A DNA stretch of 64,000 nt from Saccharospirillum sp. Its GTDB lineage: Bacteria; Pseudomonadota; Gammaproteobacteria; Pseudomonadales; Natronospirillaceae. Shown piece by piece: positions 33,397 through 41,865 of the stretch. The stretch spans positions 868,001 to 932,000 of the forward strand of contig JAGYIL010000001.1 of NCBI GenBank assembly GCA_018402545.1, written 5' to 3'. Every line of letters starts with the position of its first letter. Position 1 is the stretch's first letter. Made by a program: the position numbers and the translations under genes. A model generated the notes under the pieces. It saw nothing but the letters and a program-made list of their open reading frames with translations. It did not search any database and had not been told where the DNA came from.

Positions 33397-33446
33397 GGTA
33401 TTCTCCCTGTTGATGGCTGGCTACTTTTCATCTGTGCCAGTGGACC

Positions 33447-33559
33447 GTGCCAGCTACCGGGTAGGGCCATCCGGGGTCGGCGTAAACCCGTCCATGGGGC
33501 CTAGGCTTCGGCATCCATGCCTCAGACTACCCCGGATGGCCCTACCCGGCAGCTGACAC
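33447..33559 (-). repeat. Structured palindromic element, copy A
   Basis: 31-base arms (33447-33477 and 33529-33559) pair with only two mismatches. Read on the minus strand, the 51-base centre is homologous to copies B and C: it carries GGCATGGATGCC (a small hairpin with loop TGGA), then CCTAGGCCCC, then a segment ending TTTACGCCG. On that strand both mismatches are G-U wobbles. It lies between dxs and the YjbR-like gene, in the sense direction for a transcript running out of dxs. Confidence 0.8.
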
Positions 33560-33618
33560 TTGGTTCGTGGTTTACCCTAAACATGCCAGTACATTTTTTT
33601 GGTGAACAAACCTCAATT

Positions 33619-33831
33619 TTCATAACTCAAGTTTCGGAGTTCGCTCAGAAGACTAGCACTGGGTGTCGGGTATGCCTCTGTGGGGTAGTCCGCAGCAAGG
33701 ATGCTGCGGTCTAGGCCCGAGCCGTCGGACCGCCATTGACGGATCTACGCCGACCCCACGGAGGCATACCCGGCATCCGGTGCGGGCCAATGCCCTTGAG
33801 TTGAACCGAACTCCGAAACTTGAGTTATGAA
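33619..33831. repeat. 25-bp perfect inverted repeat enclosing palindromic element B at the dxs 3' end
   Basis: 33619-33643 is the exact reverse complement of 33807-33831 (25 of 25 bases; it starts TTCATAACTCAAGTTTCGG). The right arm includes the final sense codon bases and TAA stop of dxs. The 163 bases between contain palindromic element B and little else. This looks like an inverted duplication of the dxs end, or terminal inverted repeats of a small non-autonomous element. No clear target-site duplication is seen. Confidence 0.8.
33657..33786 (+). repeat. Structured palindromic element, copy B
   Basis: 30-base arms (33657-33686 and 33753-33782) pair with four mismatches, all G-U wobbles on the plus strand. 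The centre has a perfect 8-bp hairpin CCGCAGCA / TGCTGCGG with loop AGGA, then TCTAGGCCC, then a 5-bp hairpin CCGTC / GACGG, then ATCTACGCCG. It is homologous to copies A (inverted) and C (same orientation) but with a different variable arm segment. It is antisense to dxs. Confidence 0.8.
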
Positions 33832-35711
33832 CTACTCAAGCGACGCTCAATCGCTGCCTGAATTCCCGGCGCATTAAGGCCGACACTGGCCAGTAAATCC
33901 TGGGGTTTGCCGTGGTCGATGTAGGTGTCTGGCAAACCCAGCTGCAATACGGGGGTGGTCAGGCCTGCCTGGTGCAGGCATTCGGTGACGGCTGAACCAG
34001 CGCCGCCGCAAATGGCATTTTCTTCAACGGTCACGATGAGGTCGTGGCTGCGGGCCATGTCCAGAACCCGCTCATTATCCAAAGGTTTGATGAAGCGCAT
34101 GTTGACCAGGCTGGCGTCCAGTGCGTCGGCGGCGACCTGGGCCGGGGCGACCATGCTGCCGAAGGCCAGGATGGCAACTTTTTTGCCCTGGCGCAGTGTT
34201 TCGGCTTCACCCAGGGGCAATACCGTTAGCGCTGTTTCGATGGTAGCGCCCGGCCCGGTGCCGCGGGGGTAACGCACGGCGGCAGGCCCGGGGTGGTGAT
34301 AGGCGGTGCTGAGCATCTGGCGGCATTCGTTTTCGTCTTTGGGCGCCATGATCACCAGGTTGGGAATGCAGCGCAAAAAGCTCAGATCGAAGCTGCCAGC
34401 GTGGGTTGGGCCGTCTTCGCCGACCAGGCCTGCGCGGTCGATGGCGAAGGTGACATCGAGGTTTTGAATGGCGATGTCGTGAATCAGTTGATCGTAGGCG
34501 CGTTGCAGAAACGTCGAATAGATGGCGACGACCGGCTTGGCACCCTGGCAGGCCATGCCTGCGGCCAGGGTGACGGCGTGCTGTTCGGCAATGGCGACGT
34601 CGAAATAGCGGTTCGGGAACTGATCGGCGAAGGCGACCAGGTCTGAGCCTTCACGCATGGCCGGGGTAATGCCCATCAGGCGGTCATCGCTGCCGGCCAT
34701 GTCGCACAGCCACTGGCCAAAGACGTTGGAGTATTTGGGGCCTGCCGGAGGTTTGGCGGCCGGTTCCACGTCTTTCTTTTCCAGCTTGGTGATGGCGTGG
34801 TATTTGATCGGCTCGTTCTCGGCCGGGGTGAAACCCTTGCCCTTCTGAGTGGCTACGTGCAGAAATTGCGGTCCGTTGAAGGTTTTCAGGTTGCGCAGCG
34901 TATGCACCAGCTCGATCACATCGTGACCATCTACCGGGCCGACGTAGTTGAACCCCAGCTCTTCAAACAGGGTACCGGGCGAGACCATGCCTTTAACGTG
35001 CTCCTCGGCCTTGCGCGCGAATTCGAGAATGGGCGGCAGGTTCTGGAGGACTTTCTTGCTGTTCTCGCGCATGTGCGAGTAGGTCTTGGAGGAAAAGACC
35101 CGGGAAAAGGTTTTCGACAATGCACCGACGTTTTCCGAGATCGACATGTCGTTGTCGTTCAGCACCACCAGCATGTCGGCACCGTCGTGCCCGGCGTGGT
35201 TAAGGGCTTCGAACGCCATGCCGGCGGTCAGGGCGCCATCACCGATGACCGCAACGCTCTGGCGCGGAGTGCCAAGCAGCCGATCGGCGATCGACATGCC
35301 CAGGGCCGCCGATATCGAGGTGCTGGAATGGCCAACACCAAAGGTGTCGTAGTCGCTTTCGTCGCGCTTCGGAAAGGCAGCCAGCCCCTCGGCCTGGCGA
35401 ATGCTGTGCATGCGCTCGCGACGCCCGGTCAGAATTTTATGGGGGTAGGCCTGGTGGCCGACGTCCCAGACCAGTGAGGCCTTGGGCGTTTCATAGACGT
35501 AATGCAGGGCGATGGTCAGTTCCACAACGCCAAGCCCGGCGCCAAAGTGACCGCCGGTCTGGCCGACACTGTAGAGCAGGAATTCGCGCAATTCATCCGC
35601 CAGGCGGGGCAGCTCGTCCAGCGTCAGCAGACGCAGCTCTGCCGGAGTGTCGATGGTATCGAGCAGGGGCGTGACCGGTCTTGCTTTGGGGATGTGAGTA
35701 AAAACCTTCAT
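33825..35711 (-). CDS. dxs: 1-deoxy-D-xylulose-5-phosphate synthase Dxs
   Basis: A 628-residue thiamine-diphosphate enzyme that condenses pyruvate and glyceraldehyde 3-phosphate in the first step of the MEP isoprenoid pathway. Visible blocks include [20 protein letters not shown], the ThDP/Mg motif [18 protein letters not shown] and [12 protein letters not shown], and the transketolase pyrimidine domain with [15 protein letters not shown] and GEDGPTHAG. Length is normal. It follows ispA by 124 bp on the same strand, completing the common xseB-ispA-dxs cluster. Its stop codon lies inside a 25-bp inverted repeat. Confidence 0.97.
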
Positions 35712-35835
35712 GAAAATGCGCTTTCCTGCCTTCGAGCCTGTCCCTGCAACGGAACCTGTGATGATCGTTATAGTGTGGGTCGTCCCGGTCTGTGACGGCC
35801 GGGGATCGCATTGTAACGGAAAGCCCAGTCAGTCC

Positions 35836-36720
35836 CTAGTAGTCCCTGCTGAGCACATAGTCCGTCAGTGATCTCAGGGGAGAGGCCGGATCGATGCCCA
35901 GTTGGTCGAGCGCGGCCAGGGCGGCGTCGGTGTGCCGGTGCGCTTCGTGTCGGGCGCCGTCCAGACCAAGCAATTGCACATAGGTGGATTTGTTCAGCGC
36001 CGCATCACTGCCCTGGGGTTTGCCCAGGGTAGCGGTGTCGGCGGTGACATCGAGCATGTCGTCGGTGATCTGAAACGCAAGGCCGAGGGCCTGGCCGAAG
36101 GTGGCCAGCGCTGCCCGGGTAGCATCGGGCAGGGGGGCGTTAGTGCACAGGGCCCCCAGATGCAGGGCCGATTCGATCAGTGCGCCGGTTTTAAGGCGGT
36201 GAATTCGAGCCAGGTCGTCCAGTCCCAATTGTTGCCCTTCGGCCTGCAGATCCAGCATCTGGCCGCCTGCCATGCCGGCGTGTCCGGCCTGCCGGGCCAG
36301 AATGCCGACCATGGCCAGACGGGTGTCTGCGTCCAGGCCTGGTGCCTGACTGAGGTGTTCAAAGGCCAGGCTTTGCAGGGCGTCGCCGGCCAGTATGGCG
36401 GTGGCTTCGTCGAAGGCTCGGTGGTTGGTCGCTTTGCCGCGGCGCAAATCGTCATCGTCCATGGCGGGCAGGTCATCGTGAATCAGGCTGTAGACGTGCA
36501 CCATTTCCAGTGCGGCGGCTGGGTACAACCAGGTGTCGGGCCCGGCGCTCAGGCTTTCTGCGGCGGCACGCACCAGGGTTGGGCGCAGGCGCTTGCCGCC
36601 ATCTAGCAGCGAATAACGCATGGCTTCGGCCAGCCGGCTTGCGACCGGCTGTTGCAACAGTTGATTGAGGTGCTGCTCAAGACGCTGGCGGGTATCGTTC
36701 TGAAAAGACGCAAAGGTCAT
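35836..36720 (-). CDS. ispA: Farnesyl diphosphate synthase IspA
   Basis: A 294-residue prenyltransferase. The first Asp-rich motif is HDDLPAMDDDDLRRG (about residues 83-97, the long DDx4D form), the second is FQITDDMLDV (about 215-224), and GGKRLRPTLV binds isopentenyl diphosphate. It makes C15 farnesyl diphosphate for ubiquinone and undecaprenol. It starts 12 bp after xseB. Length and motifs are normal. Confidence 0.96.
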   Translation of the reverse strand: MTFASFQNDTRQRLEQHLNQLLQQPVASRLAEAMRYSLLDGGKRLRPTLVRAAAESLSAGPDTWLYPAAALEMVHVYSLIHDDLPAMDDDDLRRGKATNHRAFDEATAILAGDALQSLAFEHLSQAPGLDADTRLAMVGILARQAGHAGMAGGQMLDLQAEGQQLGLDDLARIHRLKTGALIESALHLGALCTNAPLPDATRAALATFGQALGLAFQITDDMLDVTADTATLGKPQGSDAALNKSTYVQLLGLDGARHEAHRHTDAALAALDQLGIDPASPLRSLTDYVLSRDY

Positions 36721-36732
36721 TGGGGCTTGGGC

Positions 36733-36966
36733 TCACTCGGAATCGGTTAACGGGGACAGCTGTTCCTGACCGGGTTCGCCGAGCAGCACCTGCACGGTTT
36801 GTTCGGCCTGGTCGAGCGCAGACTGGCACTCTCGCGTCAGCTTGATGCCCTGTTCAAAGGTTTTCATGGCATCGTCCAGCGACAGGTCACCGGACTCCAG
36901 CTGGCTGACCAGCGTTTCCAGCTGGCCCATTTTGGCTTCAAATGTATCGGTTTTGGGGTCGGTCAT
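36733..36966 (-). CDS. xseB: Exodeoxyribonuclease VII small subunit XseB
   Basis: A 77-residue protein with the complete XseB signature: FEAKMGQLETLVSQLESGDL, then LDDAMKTFEQGIKLTREC, forming a helical hairpin. It joins XseA to make the single-strand-specific exonuclease VII. It is the first gene of xseB-ispA-dxs, divergent from pomA. The 283-bp gap to pomA holds both promoters; no unambiguous -35/-10 pair was identified apart from a possible extended -10 (TAGAAT near 37198) for pomA. Confidence 0.95.
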   Translation of the reverse strand: MTDPKTDTFEAKMGQLETLVSQLESGDLSLDDAMKTFEQGIKLTRECQSALDQAEQTVQVLLGEPGQEQLSPLTDSE

Positions 36967-37249
36967 GTCGGGGTCCTGGGCTGAGGTGGTCGCGTAAGGT
37001 ACGAAGGCAGGCCAGAAGGGTCAACCATTTGGCGCCAGCCGATACTTTACACTCTGCTGATATTCTTTTCCCGAAACGGGCGTTTTTCAGTCAAACAATG
37101 ATCATGCCTGCCGATACACCGGTTAAGATGGACGGAGCGTCCTTGATAGCCGGAGTTGAAACAGGCCCGTACAACACACGGTTCTGCCAGACTCTTGCTA
37201 GAATAACAGGATAGACGATTCAACGGGACCAGACCGGGAAGCTTACACT

Positions 37250-38002
37250 GTGGATTTAGCGATGATCATTGGCCTCATCGGGGCCTTTGCGATGGTTTTG
37301 ATGTCGATGTTGCTGGGTGGCAACATGGGCATGTTCATCAACGTACCCTCTGTGCTGATTGTGTTTGTCGGCTCCATTTTCGTTTCCATGTCGAAGCTGA
37401 CGCTGGAAAAATTTCTGGGTGTCGGCAGCGTCGTGGGCAAGGCGTTTTCATTCAAGATGGTGACGCCGGATGACATGATCGACGAAATTGTCGAACTGGC
37501 CGACGCCGCTCGCAAGGGCGGTTTGTTGTCTCTGGAGGGGCGTGAAACCAGCCATGAATTCCTGTCCAAGGGCATTCAGTTGCTGGTCGACGGCCACGAC
37601 CCGGAAGTGGTCAAGCAATTGCTTACCAAAGACATGAAAATGACCTCGGCCCGCCACGAAGAAGGCACCACGTTTTTTACCGCCCTGGGCGATGTGGCGC
37701 CAGCCATGGGCATGATCGGTACACTGATCGGCCTGGTGGCCATGCTGGCCAACATGGACGACCCCAAGGCCATCGGGCCAGCCATGGCCGTCGCCCTGCT
37801 CACCACCCTTTACGGCACGCTGATGGCGACCGTGGTTGCCATTCCCATCGCCGACAAGCTCAAATTTCGCGCCATGGAAGAGGAGCGCATCCAGAAAATG
37901 GTGGTCGACGGACTGCTGTCCATTCAGGCCGGGCAAAACCCACGCATCATCGAGTCCATGCTGAAGAGCTACTTGCCTACGTCCAAGCGCGGAGCGGAAT
38001 AA
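37250..38002 (+). CDS. pomA: Sodium-type flagellar motor stator protein PomA (MotA family)
   Basis: A 250-residue stator subunit with four membrane helices: two at the N terminus (AMIIGLIGAFAMVLMSML and a second near 28-48) and two near 150-200 (GDVAPAMGMIGTLIGLVAML, then LLTTLYGTLMATVVAIPIA). The large cytoplasmic loop between helices 2 and 3 contacts FliG. GTG start, with GGGAAG about 9 bases upstream. Placement next to pomB and divergent from xseB-ispA-dxs is the arrangement found in Vibrio and relatives, where PomAB is Na+-driven. The coupling ion is inferred from family and synteny. Confidence 0.93.
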   Translation: MDLAMIIGLIGAFAMVLMSMLLGGNMGMFINVPSVLIVFVGSIFVSMSKLTLEKFLGVGSVVGKAFSFKMVTPDDMIDEIVELADAARKGGLLSLEGRETSHEFLSKGIQLLVDGHDPEVVKQLLTKDMKMTSARHEEGTTFFTALGDVAPAMGMIGTLIGLVAMLANMDDPKAIGPAMAVALLTTLYGTLMATVVAIPIADKLKFRAMEEERIQKMVVDGLLSIQAGQNPRIIESMLKSYLPTSKRGAE

Positions 38003-38020
38003 CAAGGTGATGTTGCACTC

Positions 38021-38986
38021 ATGAGTGACGAATTCGAAGACGACTGTCCCGAATGCAAGAAAGGGTTGCCCTCGTGGCTGGCCACCTTTGCCGACCTGAT
38101 GGCGCTGCTGATGTGCTTTTTCGTGCTGTTGCTGTCGTTCTCGGAAATGGATGCGCTCAAGTTCAAACGCCTGGCCGGCTCGTTACGCAACGCCTTTGGT
38201 GTTCAGGCCGAACTGCAGTTTAACGAAGTGCCCAAGGGTACCAGCATCATTGCCCAGGAATTCAGCCCGGGCCGCCCGGACCCGACGCCCCTGAACGTTA
38301 TTCGCCAGGATACCGTCGACGACTTGCGCGACTCGCTGGAGGTGCTTTGCCAGGATACGACCCTGATGCAAGAAGAGGCTGAAGGTGAATCTGGCTTGCA
38401 GTCTCGCCAGGTGCGAGTGTCGGACGCCGAAGCACAACGTCAGGTGGAAGAGCAGGCAGAGCGGATAGCGGAGGCCCTGGCTGATGTCATTGCCGACGGC
38501 ATGCTCGATATCGAAACGGTTAATCAGACGATTATCATTCGGGTGCGCGAACAGTCGTTCGGCGCGGGAACCGACTTTGTTGCCGATGAATATTTGCCCA
38601 TTCTTGACCGCGTTCGGGATTTGCTGGTGACCGTGCCCGGCACCCTGTCAATTGAAGGCCATACCGACGATATACCCATAGCGACGGCCCGGTTTCGAAG
38701 TAACTGGTTGCTCAGCTCAGCCCGGGCCTTATCGGTTGCCGAATACCTCTGGGCGGCTCCGGAAATGAGTGAAGACCGCTTTACCATCGTCGGGCATGGG
38801 TCGACCAAGCCTATTGCCAGTAACGATACACCGGAAGGTCGTGCTACCAACCGCCGGGTAGAGATTATTGTGCGCCAGGACAATCCGGATTTTGAAGGCG
38901 AAGTGACACCGGAAGACGAGCAGGGTGAGAGCGTCGACCCAGGCGATCCATCATTGTTCGGTCTGGACCCGGCCGACATTTTCTAA
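38021..38986 (+). CDS. pomB: Sodium-type flagellar motor stator protein PomB (MotB family)
   Basis: A 321-residue partner of PomA. The single helix PSWLATFADLMALLMCFFVL contains the ion-binding Asp of the FADLM motif (about residue 24-26). A periplasmic linker/plug is followed by an OmpA-like peptidoglycan-binding domain (about 150-290) with LSIEGHTDDIPI and ATNRRVEIIV. The acidic C-terminal tail (EDEQGESVDPGD) is typical of PomB-type proteins. It lies 18 bp after pomA. Confidence 0.93.
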   Translation: MSDEFEDDCPECKKGLPSWLATFADLMALLMCFFVLLLSFSEMDALKFKRLAGSLRNAFGVQAELQFNEVPKGTSIIAQEFSPGRPDPTPLNVIRQDTVDDLRDSLEVLCQDTTLMQEEAEGESGLQSRQVRVSDAEAQRQVEEQAERIAEALADVIADGMLDIETVNQTIIIRVREQSFGAGTDFVADEYLPILDRVRDLLVTVPGTLSIEGHTDDIPIATARFRSNWLLSSARALSVAEYLWAAPEMSEDRFTIVGHGSTKPIASNDTPEGRATNRRVEIIVRQDNPDFEGEVTPEDEQGESVDPGDPSLFGLDPADIF

Positions 38987-39409
38987 CCCGCCCGCCCCGG
39001 TTTGGTGCGCATTCAGGTTATACGCCTCTACTCCCGTGAGGCGAGTTCGACTGCCAGTGATTTGACTTTTCATGGCTGTTTTTTCGCGGTTCAACGCGTC
39101 AAATAGATGCCGGTTCGCTTTTCATCGATGAACACCGGTAGATAATGTGACCCACCTCTCGATTCTGCCATGGAACGCTGCGTCCATGAGCGGGCTCGTC
39201 GTACCCTGTCAAGGGTCACGGTAACCTCCAGAGGGGTTGAGAATCAGTGCCAGTTGGCCGAGGTCTCATGCCCACCCTTTTGTCAGAATCTGTTGCCATC
39301 CGGGCTCCGCCTTGGAGGCACTGGTCACCTCAAACAACAACGATTACGACTGAGTCATTCTTCAGCCCGGGCTGTCGATGGCCTGTCTGCTGTAAGGAGC
39401 GTTCATACT
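38987..39409. other. Intergenic region between pomB and the TRAP binding-protein gene
   Basis: 423 bp. A 6-bp hairpin CGCCTC / GAGGCG (39023-39028 with 39038-39043) could end the pomAB transcript but lacks a U tract. A reading frame in phase with the TRAP gene is open from 39170, but it lacks a ribosome site and a sensible N terminus, so I treat it as non-coding. The promoter of the TRAP gene must lie here; none is obvious. Confidence 0.4.
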
Positions 39410-40483
39410 ATGAAGGATAGCAACCACCGGTTAGCTGTGAAGCCGGTTAAACGCCTGTCTCTGATATGCCTGGTCGTAACCAGCCTGGTTAGCCTGGTAA
39501 GCACGGCTCAGGCGGAGGAGTTCCAGTTTCGGTTGCATCACTTTTTAGGCCCGGATTCTCCGGCTCAGAAAGTTTTGCTGGAGCCGTGGGCCGAGCGAAT
39601 TCGCGAGCAAAGCAACGGCCGCATCGATATCAGCATTCACCCGGCAATGTCGCTGGGCGGCGCGCCCCCAACGCTGGTGAATCAGGTTGAATCCGGTGAA
39701 GTCGACATGGTGTGGACGCTGGCCGGCTATACACCGGGTCGCTTTCCCCGTACCGAAGTCTTCGAGCTGCCTGCGGTGCATTTTCGCAGCGCCTATGCCA
39801 CCAACCGGGCCATTTTTGCCAATTTTGATCTGATTGAGGCCGACTATCAGGGGTTGAAGCCACTGCTGGTGCACGTGCACGCTGGCAACGCGATTCAGAT
39901 GGCCAATCAGAATGTGACCGGCCCCTCTGATTTGCGCGGTCTGACCATTCGAACCCCCTCACGCACCGGTGGCTGGCTGATTGACGCCTGGCAGGCCGAG
40001 CAGGCCGCCATGCCAGCTCCCCGCATTCGGGATGCCCTGGCTGATGGCAGTATCGATGGCGCTTTGATCCCGTTCGAGGTGTTTTCCTCAATCGGTCTTG
40101 AAGGGCTGGTGGGTCATTCGACAATAGGGTCCGACGGCAGCCGCTTCGGCACCTCGGTGTTCCTGTTTCTGATGAATCAAAGCCAGTTCGATGCCCTGCC
40201 TGCTGACCTGCAGCAGGTTATCGACGACAATATCGGCATTGATTTCGTGAAGGAGATGGGTCTGGCCTGGGATGATCTGGAGGTGCCCGGCCGGATGGTT
40301 CAATATGAAAATCTAACCAAGTTGCCGGTCGACGAGATCTACGCCTTTGAAGACCTCAGCGAGCAGGTCGTGCAACGCTGGATCGAAGACGTCTCGACGC
40401 AGGGTATCGATGGTCGTCAGCTGGTGGATGAAGCGCGACGCTACATTGCCCGCTATTCTCGCATTATCACCACGCTCGATTAA
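39410..40483 (+). CDS. TRAP transporter substrate-binding protein (DctP family), orphan
   Basis: A 357-residue periplasmic binding protein. ATG 39410 follows AAGGAG (39393-39398) and opens a clear signal peptide (KRLSLICLVVTSLVSLVSTAQA, cut near residue 35). The mature fold has FRLHHFLGPDSPAQKVLLEP, the DctP block VDMVWTLAGYTPGRFP, and the ligand-Arg region DLRGLTIRTPSRTGG. DctP proteins capture carboxylates for the DctQM sodium-coupled permease. No dctQ or dctM gene is in the window, so it is an orphan. It converges on pfkA. Confidence 0.88.
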   Translation: MKDSNHRLAVKPVKRLSLICLVVTSLVSLVSTAQAEEFQFRLHHFLGPDSPAQKVLLEPWAERIREQSNGRIDISIHPAMSLGGAPPTLVNQVESGEVDMVWTLAGYTPGRFPRTEVFELPAVHFRSAYATNRAIFANFDLIEADYQGLKPLLVHVHAGNAIQMANQNVTGPSDLRGLTIRTPSRTGGWLIDAWQAEQAAMPAPRIRDALADGSIDGALIPFEVFSSIGLEGLVGHSTIGSDGSRFGTSVFLFLMNQSQFDALPADLQQVIDDNIGIDFVKEMGLAWDDLEVPGRMVQYENLTKLPVDEIYAFEDLSEQVVQRWIEDVSTQGIDGRQLVDEARRYIARYSRIITTLD

Positions 40484-40529
40484 CCACCCCGCATGGGTAA
40501 GCCCCGGGGTGGATACTTTCCCCCGGGGC
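40484..40529. terminator. Overlapping hairpins between convergent TRAP and pfkA genes
   Basis: Two mutually exclusive GC-rich stems: CCACCCCG at 40484-40491 with 40505-40512, and GCCCCGGGG at 40501-40509 with 40521-40529. They fill the short gap between converging genes and probably end both transcripts. No clean U tract follows either stem. Confidence 0.55.
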
Positions 40530-40538
40530 AGCAGTCTC

Positions 40539-41501
40539 TCAGGCCAGCAATTTGGTCAGGTCGTACAGGTCCTGTTTGAACGGGCGGGGCATGTTTTCAA
40601 TGGCATCGATGATGTCATGATGCACCAGACGGTTGCTTTGCAGCCCGACGCAACGGCCACCGTGGCCCTCCATCAGTAACTCCACCGCATAGGCACCCAT
40701 TTGGCTCGCCATTACCCGGTCGAACGCGCAGGGTACGCCGCCGCGCTGAATATGCCCCAGAATGGTAGCCCGGGTTTCGAGACCGGTTCGTGCTTCGATA
40801 CGCTTGGCCAGCGCACTGACGTCAGTCACGTGCTCGGTGATGGCGATAATGGAGTGCTTCTTGCCGGTGATGACGTTGTTGGCAACGGTCTTGATCAGCG
40901 ATGCCTCGTCAAAGCCTTTTTCGGGCACGATGGTGTACTCGGCCCCGCCCCCGATAGACGCCATGATGGTCAGGTCACCGCAGTACCGGCCCATAATTTC
41001 GACGATGGATATGCGATTGTGCGACGAGCAGGTATCGCGTAACCGGTCGATGGCGTCGAGCACGGTATTCAGCGCCGTGTGAAAGCCGATGGTGTAGTCG
41101 GTACCGGCAACGTCGTTGTCGATGGTCCCCGGCAGGCCAACACAGGGAAATCCCATTTCGGTCAGCCGCTTGGCGCCCATGTAGGAACCATCGCCGCCGA
41201 TCACGACCAGGGCGTCGATGTCGTGTTTGCGCAGGTTGTCGATGCACTCGCGCCGCACCGATTCTTCCTTGAATTCCGGAAAGCGGGCAGACCCCAAAAA
41301 GGTGCCGCCGCGATTGATCATGTCTGACACGTCCTGGCGTTTCAGCGGTTTGATCCGGTCGAGATGCAGGCCAAGATAGCCATCCCGAATACCATAAACC
41401 TCCAGATCCTTAACGATGGCATTGCGTACCACGGCCCTGATCGCCGCGTTCATGCCAGGCGCGTCGCCACCGCTGGTTAACACTCCGATTTTTTTAATCA
41501 T
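40539..41501 (-). CDS. pfkA: ATP-dependent 6-phosphofructokinase PfkA
   Basis: A 320-residue bacterial PFK-1 of standard length. It opens [19 protein letters not shown], with the phosphate-binding glycines; ATP-site GGDGSYMGA near residues 102-110; catalytic [17 protein letters not shown] with the Asp of DND; substrate-binding [11 protein letters not shown]; and the allosteric region near 185-215. GGDGS has Gly at the position that makes the enzyme ATP- rather than PPi-dependent. It phosphorylates fructose 6-phosphate in glycolysis, consistent with the sugar uptake and glucosidase genes here. Confidence 0.96.
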
Positions 41502-41690
41502 GGCTGCACAACCTATACAGGCTCCAGCTCACCGGGTTTGTAAAATGAATTAAGCCAGTGAGTCGGGCAATAGAAGAGAGTTCACTCAGCAGAATGTAAC
41601 AAAATTACAGGTTCGGTGGCGAGTTTTTCCCGAAGCGTGTTTTTTATCCGACTGGGTAATGCTGATTTTGGGTGGGCCAGCGATATGAGT

Positions 41691-41813
41691 GGCGGCTGCC
41701 GGGTAGGCTCATACAGGGAAGTCCGCAGCATGGATGCTGCGGTCTAGGCCCCATGGATGGGTTGAGTGGGCGGCATTCCGCCCGACCCTGTATGAGCCTA
41801 CCCGGTGGCCGTC
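41691..41813 (+). repeat. Structured palindromic element, copy C
   Basis: 28-base arms (41691-41718 and 41786-41813) pair with three mismatches, all G-U wobbles on the plus strand; the inner 20 bp (41699-41718 with 41786-41805) are perfect. The centre has a perfect 8-bp hairpin CCGCAGCA / TGCTGCGG with loop TGGA (41722-41741), then TCTAGGCCCC, then a perfect 6-bp hairpin GGGCGG / CCGCCC with loop CATT. It lies between pfkA and the SDR gene; the rest of this 364-bp gap shows no gene. Confidence 0.8.
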
Positions 41814-41865
41814 ACGGGCCCCTGGCAACAACTGGAACTCGGCGCGATTGGCTGTAAGTACACCT

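Follow-up and report, generated by a model that had tools for sequence, protein, structure and literature searches.

A TwoAYGGAY-type repeat carrying paired CsrA-type hairpin loops is dispersed through a Saccharospirillum genome and is shared by many other Gammaproteobacteria

CsrA/RsmA is a global regulator. Its activity is set mainly by a few sponge RNAs, according to the available text of PMC4333381, and the high-affinity site of Csr/Rsm proteins (CsrA/RsmE), as described in the accessible part of PMC4005645, is an ANGGAX hexaloop placed directly on a stem, with N and X free; the pattern (A/U)CANGGANG(U/A) is in use elsewhere (PMC4353343, in the portion available). The sponge RNAs CsrB, CsrC and RsmX/Y/Z carry A(N)GGAX-type GGA hairpins (for RsmZ, see PMC4005645) and are single genes with many sites (PMC4333381). 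Here we describe an element that shares these hairpins but is organized differently, with up to a few sites in each of many scattered copies. Three copies (A, B and C) lie in a 64,000-nucleotide stretch of the marine bacterium Saccharospirillum sp. (positions 868,001 to 932,000 of contig JAGYIL010000001.1), hereafter the window, and all three probably belong to an RNA element that bears CsrA sites.

The family most like this element is TwoAYGGAY (RF01731), typed as cis-regulatory in Rfam (clan CL00106). As far as the accessible text of PMC4333381 goes, TwoAYGGAY consists of a long outer stem leading to a junction with two AYGGAY-loop hairpins, has tandem G-A in one stem, and has already been proposed to bind CsrA. 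The Saccharospirillum element has the same layout but wider loops (ANGGAN), and its window copies score below the gathering cutoff of RF01731 (43 bits); at Rfam's gathering cutoffs the window gives 0 matches. The first-pass annotation had presented the three copies as a candidate undescribed family. That description is not supported, since under lax limits all four loci tested in the genome (L001, L013, L046 and L060) match RF01731 at 26.7–31.4 bits. Copy A (in L046) scores 28.7 bits and copy C (in L001) 31.3 bits, whereas copy B (in L046) gives no match to RF01731 at E 10. The alignments are in register with both loops in three of the three displayed, and A and C, but not B (AAGGAU and UCGGAC), have AYGGAY loops paired inside one outer stem. 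Elsewhere, 4 of 18 foreign loci pass the RF01731 cutoff, in 6 places, and in a set of 57 genomes of relatives RF01731 matches 13, of which 7 over the cutoff (G054 has 22 matches, G014 has 11 and G020 has 10), while R1, the covariance model introduced below, matches 22 of the genomes. We base the kinship with TwoAYGGAY on the shared layout together with the over-cutoff copies found elsewhere. In the literature covered, which left out subscription journals, preprints and supplements, the accessible texts neither describe TwoAYGGAY as a hundreds-per-genome repeat nor report TwoAYGGAY or CsrA-type hairpins as high-copy repeats. The fold itself is already known; what is new is the scale, the selection on the sense strand, the inverted pairs and the breadth.

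This TwoAYGGAY-type element is dispersed through the genome in at least 197 copies, which are essentially intergenic. R1, built from 49 of the genome's own copies, places A, B and C where the first-pass annotation had put them, and the sequence blocks it had listed as shared are found in all three. The covariance-model search that it had proposed yielded, in 609 kb examined of the 4.25-Mb genome, 197 distinct copies, 99 on the plus and 98 on the minus strand, as well as matches in many other Gammaproteobacteria. The number 197 is a lower bound: the 609 kb consist of the window and of regions surrounding copies already known, and further places turned up in the genome outside them. All 150 of the 150 candidates scored in the genome matched R1 (hence at least 150), and a search for the core pattern that allowed up to three mismatches gave 83 forward and 88 reverse matches, whereas the reversed pattern gave 0 in either direction. 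Mechanical calls of open reading frames (ORFs) overlap 54 of the 197 copies; 38 of these ORFs are shorter than 200 aa, the other 16 overlaps lie at an ORF end or at most 129 nt from one, and no long ORF call has a copy in its interior (0/197). The 142 copies without ORF overlap are in convergent (48), tandem (77) or divergent (17) gene settings, for which no background was computed. Two further sequences of the genome, at G000:C6:287664-287784 and 298446-298567 (both on the minus strand), match RF01731 with 49.6 and 42.9 bits and are outside the 197 R1 copies; they represent another TwoAYGGAY subfamily. With an R1 copy 80 nt away, at 298648 on the plus strand, the second again forms a minus–plus pair.

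In the 49-copy alignment, the element comprises a 30-bp stem (P1), an 8-bp hairpin (P2) and a 3-bp hairpin (P3), with 96.8% of the cells paired. Copy C has in addition an extra hairpin, GGGCGG-CAUU-CCGCCC. RNA folding of A, B and C gave z values of -8.17, -9.18 and -9.28 (0/200 shuffles as good), so that the three copies fold far better than shuffled sequences. Both sides changed in 32 of the 41 pairs, compared with 20.6 in shuffles; the cells changed on both sides numbered 295, compared with 78.6 in shuffles and 24–34 when the partners were slid, although these cells are not independent events since related copies share descent. Ten of the 49 rows, including copy A, have tandem G-A/A-G in place of two P2 pairs (39-54 and 40-53), where the other rows, B and C included, have standard pairs.

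The G-U wobbles of P1 are strand-specific. According to the first-pass annotation, the arms of A, B and C have 2, 4 and 3 mismatches, respectively, all nine of them G-U or U-G in the homologous orientation; both statements held on recount. The predominance of G-U extends to the family: in the 188 of 197 copies that could be used (those with 24 or more of the 30 P1 positions paired), we counted 428 G-U/U-G against 20 A-C/C-A, with G-U outnumbering A-C in 174 copies and the reverse in 2. Omitting positions 10–12, where G-U is common, left 177 G-U against 19 A-C. In tandem gene settings the ratio of G-U to A-C was alike for copies in sense (96:3) and antisense (79:3) orientation to their neighbours; the constraint is therefore on the element's own sense strand. 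Selection on a folded sense strand, as proposed from the three copies, is thus borne out by this bias and by a covariation exceeding that of the shuffled and slid controls.

The second conserved feature is the pair of loops. A model-free scan for ANGGAN hexaloops with two or more closing pairs found two or three of them in the junction region of 163 of the 197 copies, the first two being 23 nt apart in 153 copies. Over the whole element, 174 copies have at least two such loops and 23 have one, some of the loops being in P1, as is one ANGGAN of copy C. By contrast, the antisense strand has none (0/197), and shuffled copies gave one loop in 16/197. When the best hairpin was picked by its stem alone, its loop was ANGGAN in 165/197 copies for P2 and in 147/197 for P3. 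The A and the GGA are kept while the other two positions vary, N being U, G or A in P2 and the last base of P3 usually U, C or A, and the closing pair is C-G in 48/49 own and 51/51 foreign rows for P2 and in 49/49 own and 49/51 foreign rows for P3. Note that the foreign alignment was fitted to the model and mostly selected by loop pattern, so that only the 12 foreign matches without the search pattern count for the loops: all 12 have GGA in both loops, with a full ANGGAN (by eye) in 11 for P2 and 12 for P3, and their P3 stems swap C-G, A-U and U-A. The element thus follows the rule for high-affinity sites (ANGGAX on a C-G-closed stem), copy B doing so only once.

The element is present well beyond Saccharospirillum sp. 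A search with a two-CATGGATG-loop pattern returned at least 117 stretches, evident chance matches included, and the matches listed are from Pseudomonas, Stenotrophomonas, Xanthomonas, Luteimonas, Alteromonas, Marinobacter, Shewanella and others; records of Saccharospirillum salsuginis carry close relatives. R1 applied to 100 of those loci gave 89 rows, opposite-strand shadows counted. Among 51 matches drawn from 39 loci, of which Saccharospirillum contributed at least one, both sides changed in 40 of 41 pairs, with 782 cells changed on both sides against 225.6 in shuffles. A second covariance model (R2), built from this 51-match set, matched 70 of 369 genomes of the class, of which 27, our genome included, have at least 10 matches; deeper scoring gave at least 150 for G303 (150/150 scored), 42 for G144, 26 for G341 and 9 for G401. 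The csrA gene, present once in our genome, was found in 313/369 genomes of the class and in 65/70 of those with the element. Among genomes at least 90% complete, 57/58 with the element and 223/256 of the others have csrA (one-sided Fisher p=0.006; p=0.02 for all genomes), an association confounded, as is that of Y1_Tnp discussed below, by kinship and genome size. In plasmid and phage collections, copy B had no match and a Pseudomonas form matched one record each. One element (74.5 bits, Stenotrophomonas-like) is in a contig titled Bacillus subtilis SK7B5 (L184), which may be contamination. Two loci (L153, from Shewanella, and L206) have, by eye, short tandem repeats with a double-loop layout, CATGGATGTATTTATCC...CCATGGATGG, just past a T-run hairpin.

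The simplest reading of these data is an RNA element that was selected as a two-site CsrA platform and amplified in this genome. Its sense strand folds into a rod of about 30 bp (P1) whose end junction displays the short hairpins P2 and P3, and these, each typically capped by ANGGAN on C-G and spaced by 23 nt, would form a paired high-affinity site for a CsrA/RsmA dimer. We infer that the RNA, made by the element's own or by neighbouring transcription, captures CsrA; the copies jointly would then buffer CsrA from many scattered places, and an individual copy could place neighbouring transcripts under CsrA-dependent control or confer RNA protection on them. More tentatively, a mobile, RNA-shaped element may have carried a CsrA dimer site to hundreds of places in genomes of several gammaproteobacterial lineages, creating a scattered genomic sponge and a supply of CsrA-responsive modules for untranslated regions (UTRs), and its spread may depend on the folded sense RNA and perhaps on CsrA. 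The platform may benefit the host, as sponge or UTR modules, or the propagation of the element.

Several observations weigh against the reading as a CsrA platform. A single standard junction loop is present in 34/197 copies, among them B, and R1, R2 and the foreign loci all derive from loop-bearing seeds. The P1 stems of the 188 own copies contain 203 other mismatches, and the G-U bias is weaker in foreign copies (66 against 15, over all 41 pairs of 51 copies). The matches to RF01731 are weak on their own (E 0.12–1.3), and L001 has an antisense match to Ysr224 with a lower E value (0.021). No promoter-like word was present among the 40 commonest 8-mers of the 5' flanks, no dedicated promoter scan being made. 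The csrA association, confounded by kinship, is paralleled by one of Y1_Tnp, which was found in 241/369 genomes and is commoner in those with the element (58/70 against 183/299; p=0.0003). Finally, orientation to neighbouring genes is neutral (40 sense and 37 antisense in tandem gene settings), which speaks for selection at the level of the element, and the constraint is not exerted via read-through RNA of the host.

Copies also have a preferred arrangement. Neighbours closer than 600 bp form 25 pairs in our genome, all of them (25/25) minus–plus, with gaps of 35–143 nt and one of 526 nt. Local duplication or gene conversion was considered as the origin of these close pairs and rejected, since the two members of a pair resemble each other less than random copies do (arms, 0.557 against 0.646; core, 0.561 against 0.692; ungapped comparison). 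Nor is the minus–plus order universal: among the matches listed, G341 has seven plus–minus pairs with gaps of 204–206 nt, and Alteromonas L114 has same-direction copies. Inverted pairing thus recurs, but the sense of the pair differs between genomes. Two G341 loci (L317 and L324) carry similar composite units, in which about 205 nt of spacer separate two inverted elements, and L114 and L199 contain same-direction or mixed arrays of elements within about 1 kb.

Could the conserved strand be DNA rather than RNA? An element moved as a single-stranded DNA hairpin (IS200/REPIN-like or attC-like), its loops being read by a recombinase instead of CsrA, is the main rival explanation, although we consider it unlikely. 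Tolerance of G-U (G-T in DNA) on one strand would equally fit one folded DNA strand, and orientation neutral to genes, the inversion of close copies in 25/25 pairs and the higher frequency of Y1_Tnp in genomes with the element all agree with it. So does an element-free orthologous site: in four sister species (G001, G002, G004 and G005) the same gene pair has neither A nor B between its members, one of which, the minus-strand ORF at 33825-35711, we take to be dxs-like. At this locus G003 is equivocal and G004 has another copy past the neighbouring gene; no sharp element boundaries could be drawn from the element-free sites, the sister intergenic regions being too diverged. On the other hand, the loops obey CsrA's A-N-GGA-N rule, free positions included, and the only Y1 transposase match of our genome (L061 1435-1878, near G000:C1 1871362), a RAYT-like ORF of 147 aa, is flanked by GTAGGAAGCCAGTCCTCTGGG repeats of the GTAG type that belong, by eye, to a separate repetitive extragenic palindrome (REP) family; R1 was not run on this locus. 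Moreover, 12 of the 70 genomes with the element have no Y1 match, Y1 being the recombinase type searched for; they include G128, G256, G293, G370 and G401, which are 97–100% complete, and the Y1-less genomes with at least 10 elements are G128, G293, G370, G124 (less complete) and G134. Mobilization by RAYT was judged unlikely on these two grounds, the different repeats and the Y1-less genomes. Accordingly, of the hairpin-mobilized repeat of REP/MITE type suggested by the first-pass annotation, the dispersed repeat is supported and REP/RAYT mobilization is not; a single-stranded DNA hairpin might nevertheless have moved by a route independent of Y1.

The element could also be a miniature inverted-repeat transposable element (MITE) of a classical insertion sequence; an outer AACTCAAGTTTCGGAGTTCG inverted repeat would then form its ends, and the CsrA-like core would be a passenger. 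What recommends this idea is a perfect 25-bp inverted repeat around copy B, which adds to the first-pass annotation, and its relatives, found upstream of 65/197, downstream of 59/197 and on both sides of 48/197 copies, in the latter at near-fixed offsets, with 0 in shuffles. Both arms are absent, however, from 121/197 copies at the stringency used, including six with another outer repeat, and the 48 two-armed copies give no target duplication signal (mean longest direct match of 3.33, compared with 3.18 for swapped flanks); we consider this origin quite improbable. The six copies have an inverted repeat around TGAGT-AGAAATTCG and resemble a second subfamily. Least probable, and by a wide measure implausible, is that the copies are intrinsic terminators or passive hairpins of mRNA ends, sharing their core by mere descent. 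They do lie mostly between genes, with 48 convergent against 17 divergent settings out of the 142 (no background computed), and in 13/197 the 20 nt upstream contain AAAA, which reads as a T-run on the antisense side; but TTTT within 20 nt after the sense stem occurs in 0/197, against 18/197 in the stretch 100–120 nt away, and terminators leave the loop conservation and the sense-only G-U unexplained.

Table 1. Features of the three window copies (window coordinates) and copies with a different outer repeat (genome coordinates, G000)
Feature	Position	Strand	Remarks
Copy A	33446..33561	-	R1 match 126.9 bits; 30-bp stem P1, hairpins P2 and P3
A, P2 hexaloop AUGGAU (ANGGAN)	33513..33518	-	
A, P3 hexaloop AUGGAC (ANGGAN)	33490..33495	-	
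Outer 25-bp inverted repeat around B, left arm	33619..33643	+	100% complementary
Copy B	33654..33784	+	R1 match 103.9 bits; same plan, P3 region 15 nt longer
B, P2 hexaloop AAGGAU (ANGGAN)	33697..33702	+	sole standard loop of B
B, variant second GGA loop UCGGAC	33725..33730	+	first A of CsrA consensus absent; by eye
Outer 25-bp inverted repeat around B, right arm	33807..33831	+	overlaps end of ORF 33825-35711 (-)
Copy C	41687..41816	+	R1 match 120.9 bits; same plan and extra hairpin
C, P2 hexaloop AUGGAU (ANGGAN)	41730..41735	+	
C, P3 hexaloop AUGGAU (ANGGAN)	41753..41758	+	
Copies with TGAGT-AGAAATTCG outer repeat	G000:C1:588468, 1169455, 1540541, 2438653; C5:298594, 315316		

Dispersed intergenic hairpins, often in inverted pairs, are also found among REPINs and ERIC-like palindromes. 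The same holds for REP sequences and bacterial interspersed mosaic elements (BIMEs), as described in the accessible text of PMC2817692; unlike REP/REPIN sequences, the present element has a much longer junction structure, and the RAYT-like gene of its genome is flanked by other repeats. Going by published description in the parts available, and not by comparison of sequences, the element may also resemble two Pseudomonas fluorescens repeats, R178 (101 bp, with internal inverted repeats) and R200 (320 bp; PMC2718517), and intergenic sites flanking ISPpu8 in P. putida KT2440, one of them a 'long palindromic region', which are among the targets of three Rsm proteins (PMC7937890). By analogy, these Rsm-bound sites may be an independent hint in favour of CsrA sites in the element.

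If some genomes indeed carry 100–200 extra paired CsrA sites in intergenic repeats, the arithmetic of Csr titration changes, and such genomes may hold large hidden sets of CsrA-binding elements. The reading as a CsrA platform also offers a concrete function for TwoAYGGAY, in line with the CsrA-binding proposal in the accessible text of PMC4333381. With its hundreds of covarying CsrA-type hairpins the family is a natural collection for study and, if the reading is true, repeats would be a source of post-transcriptional control.

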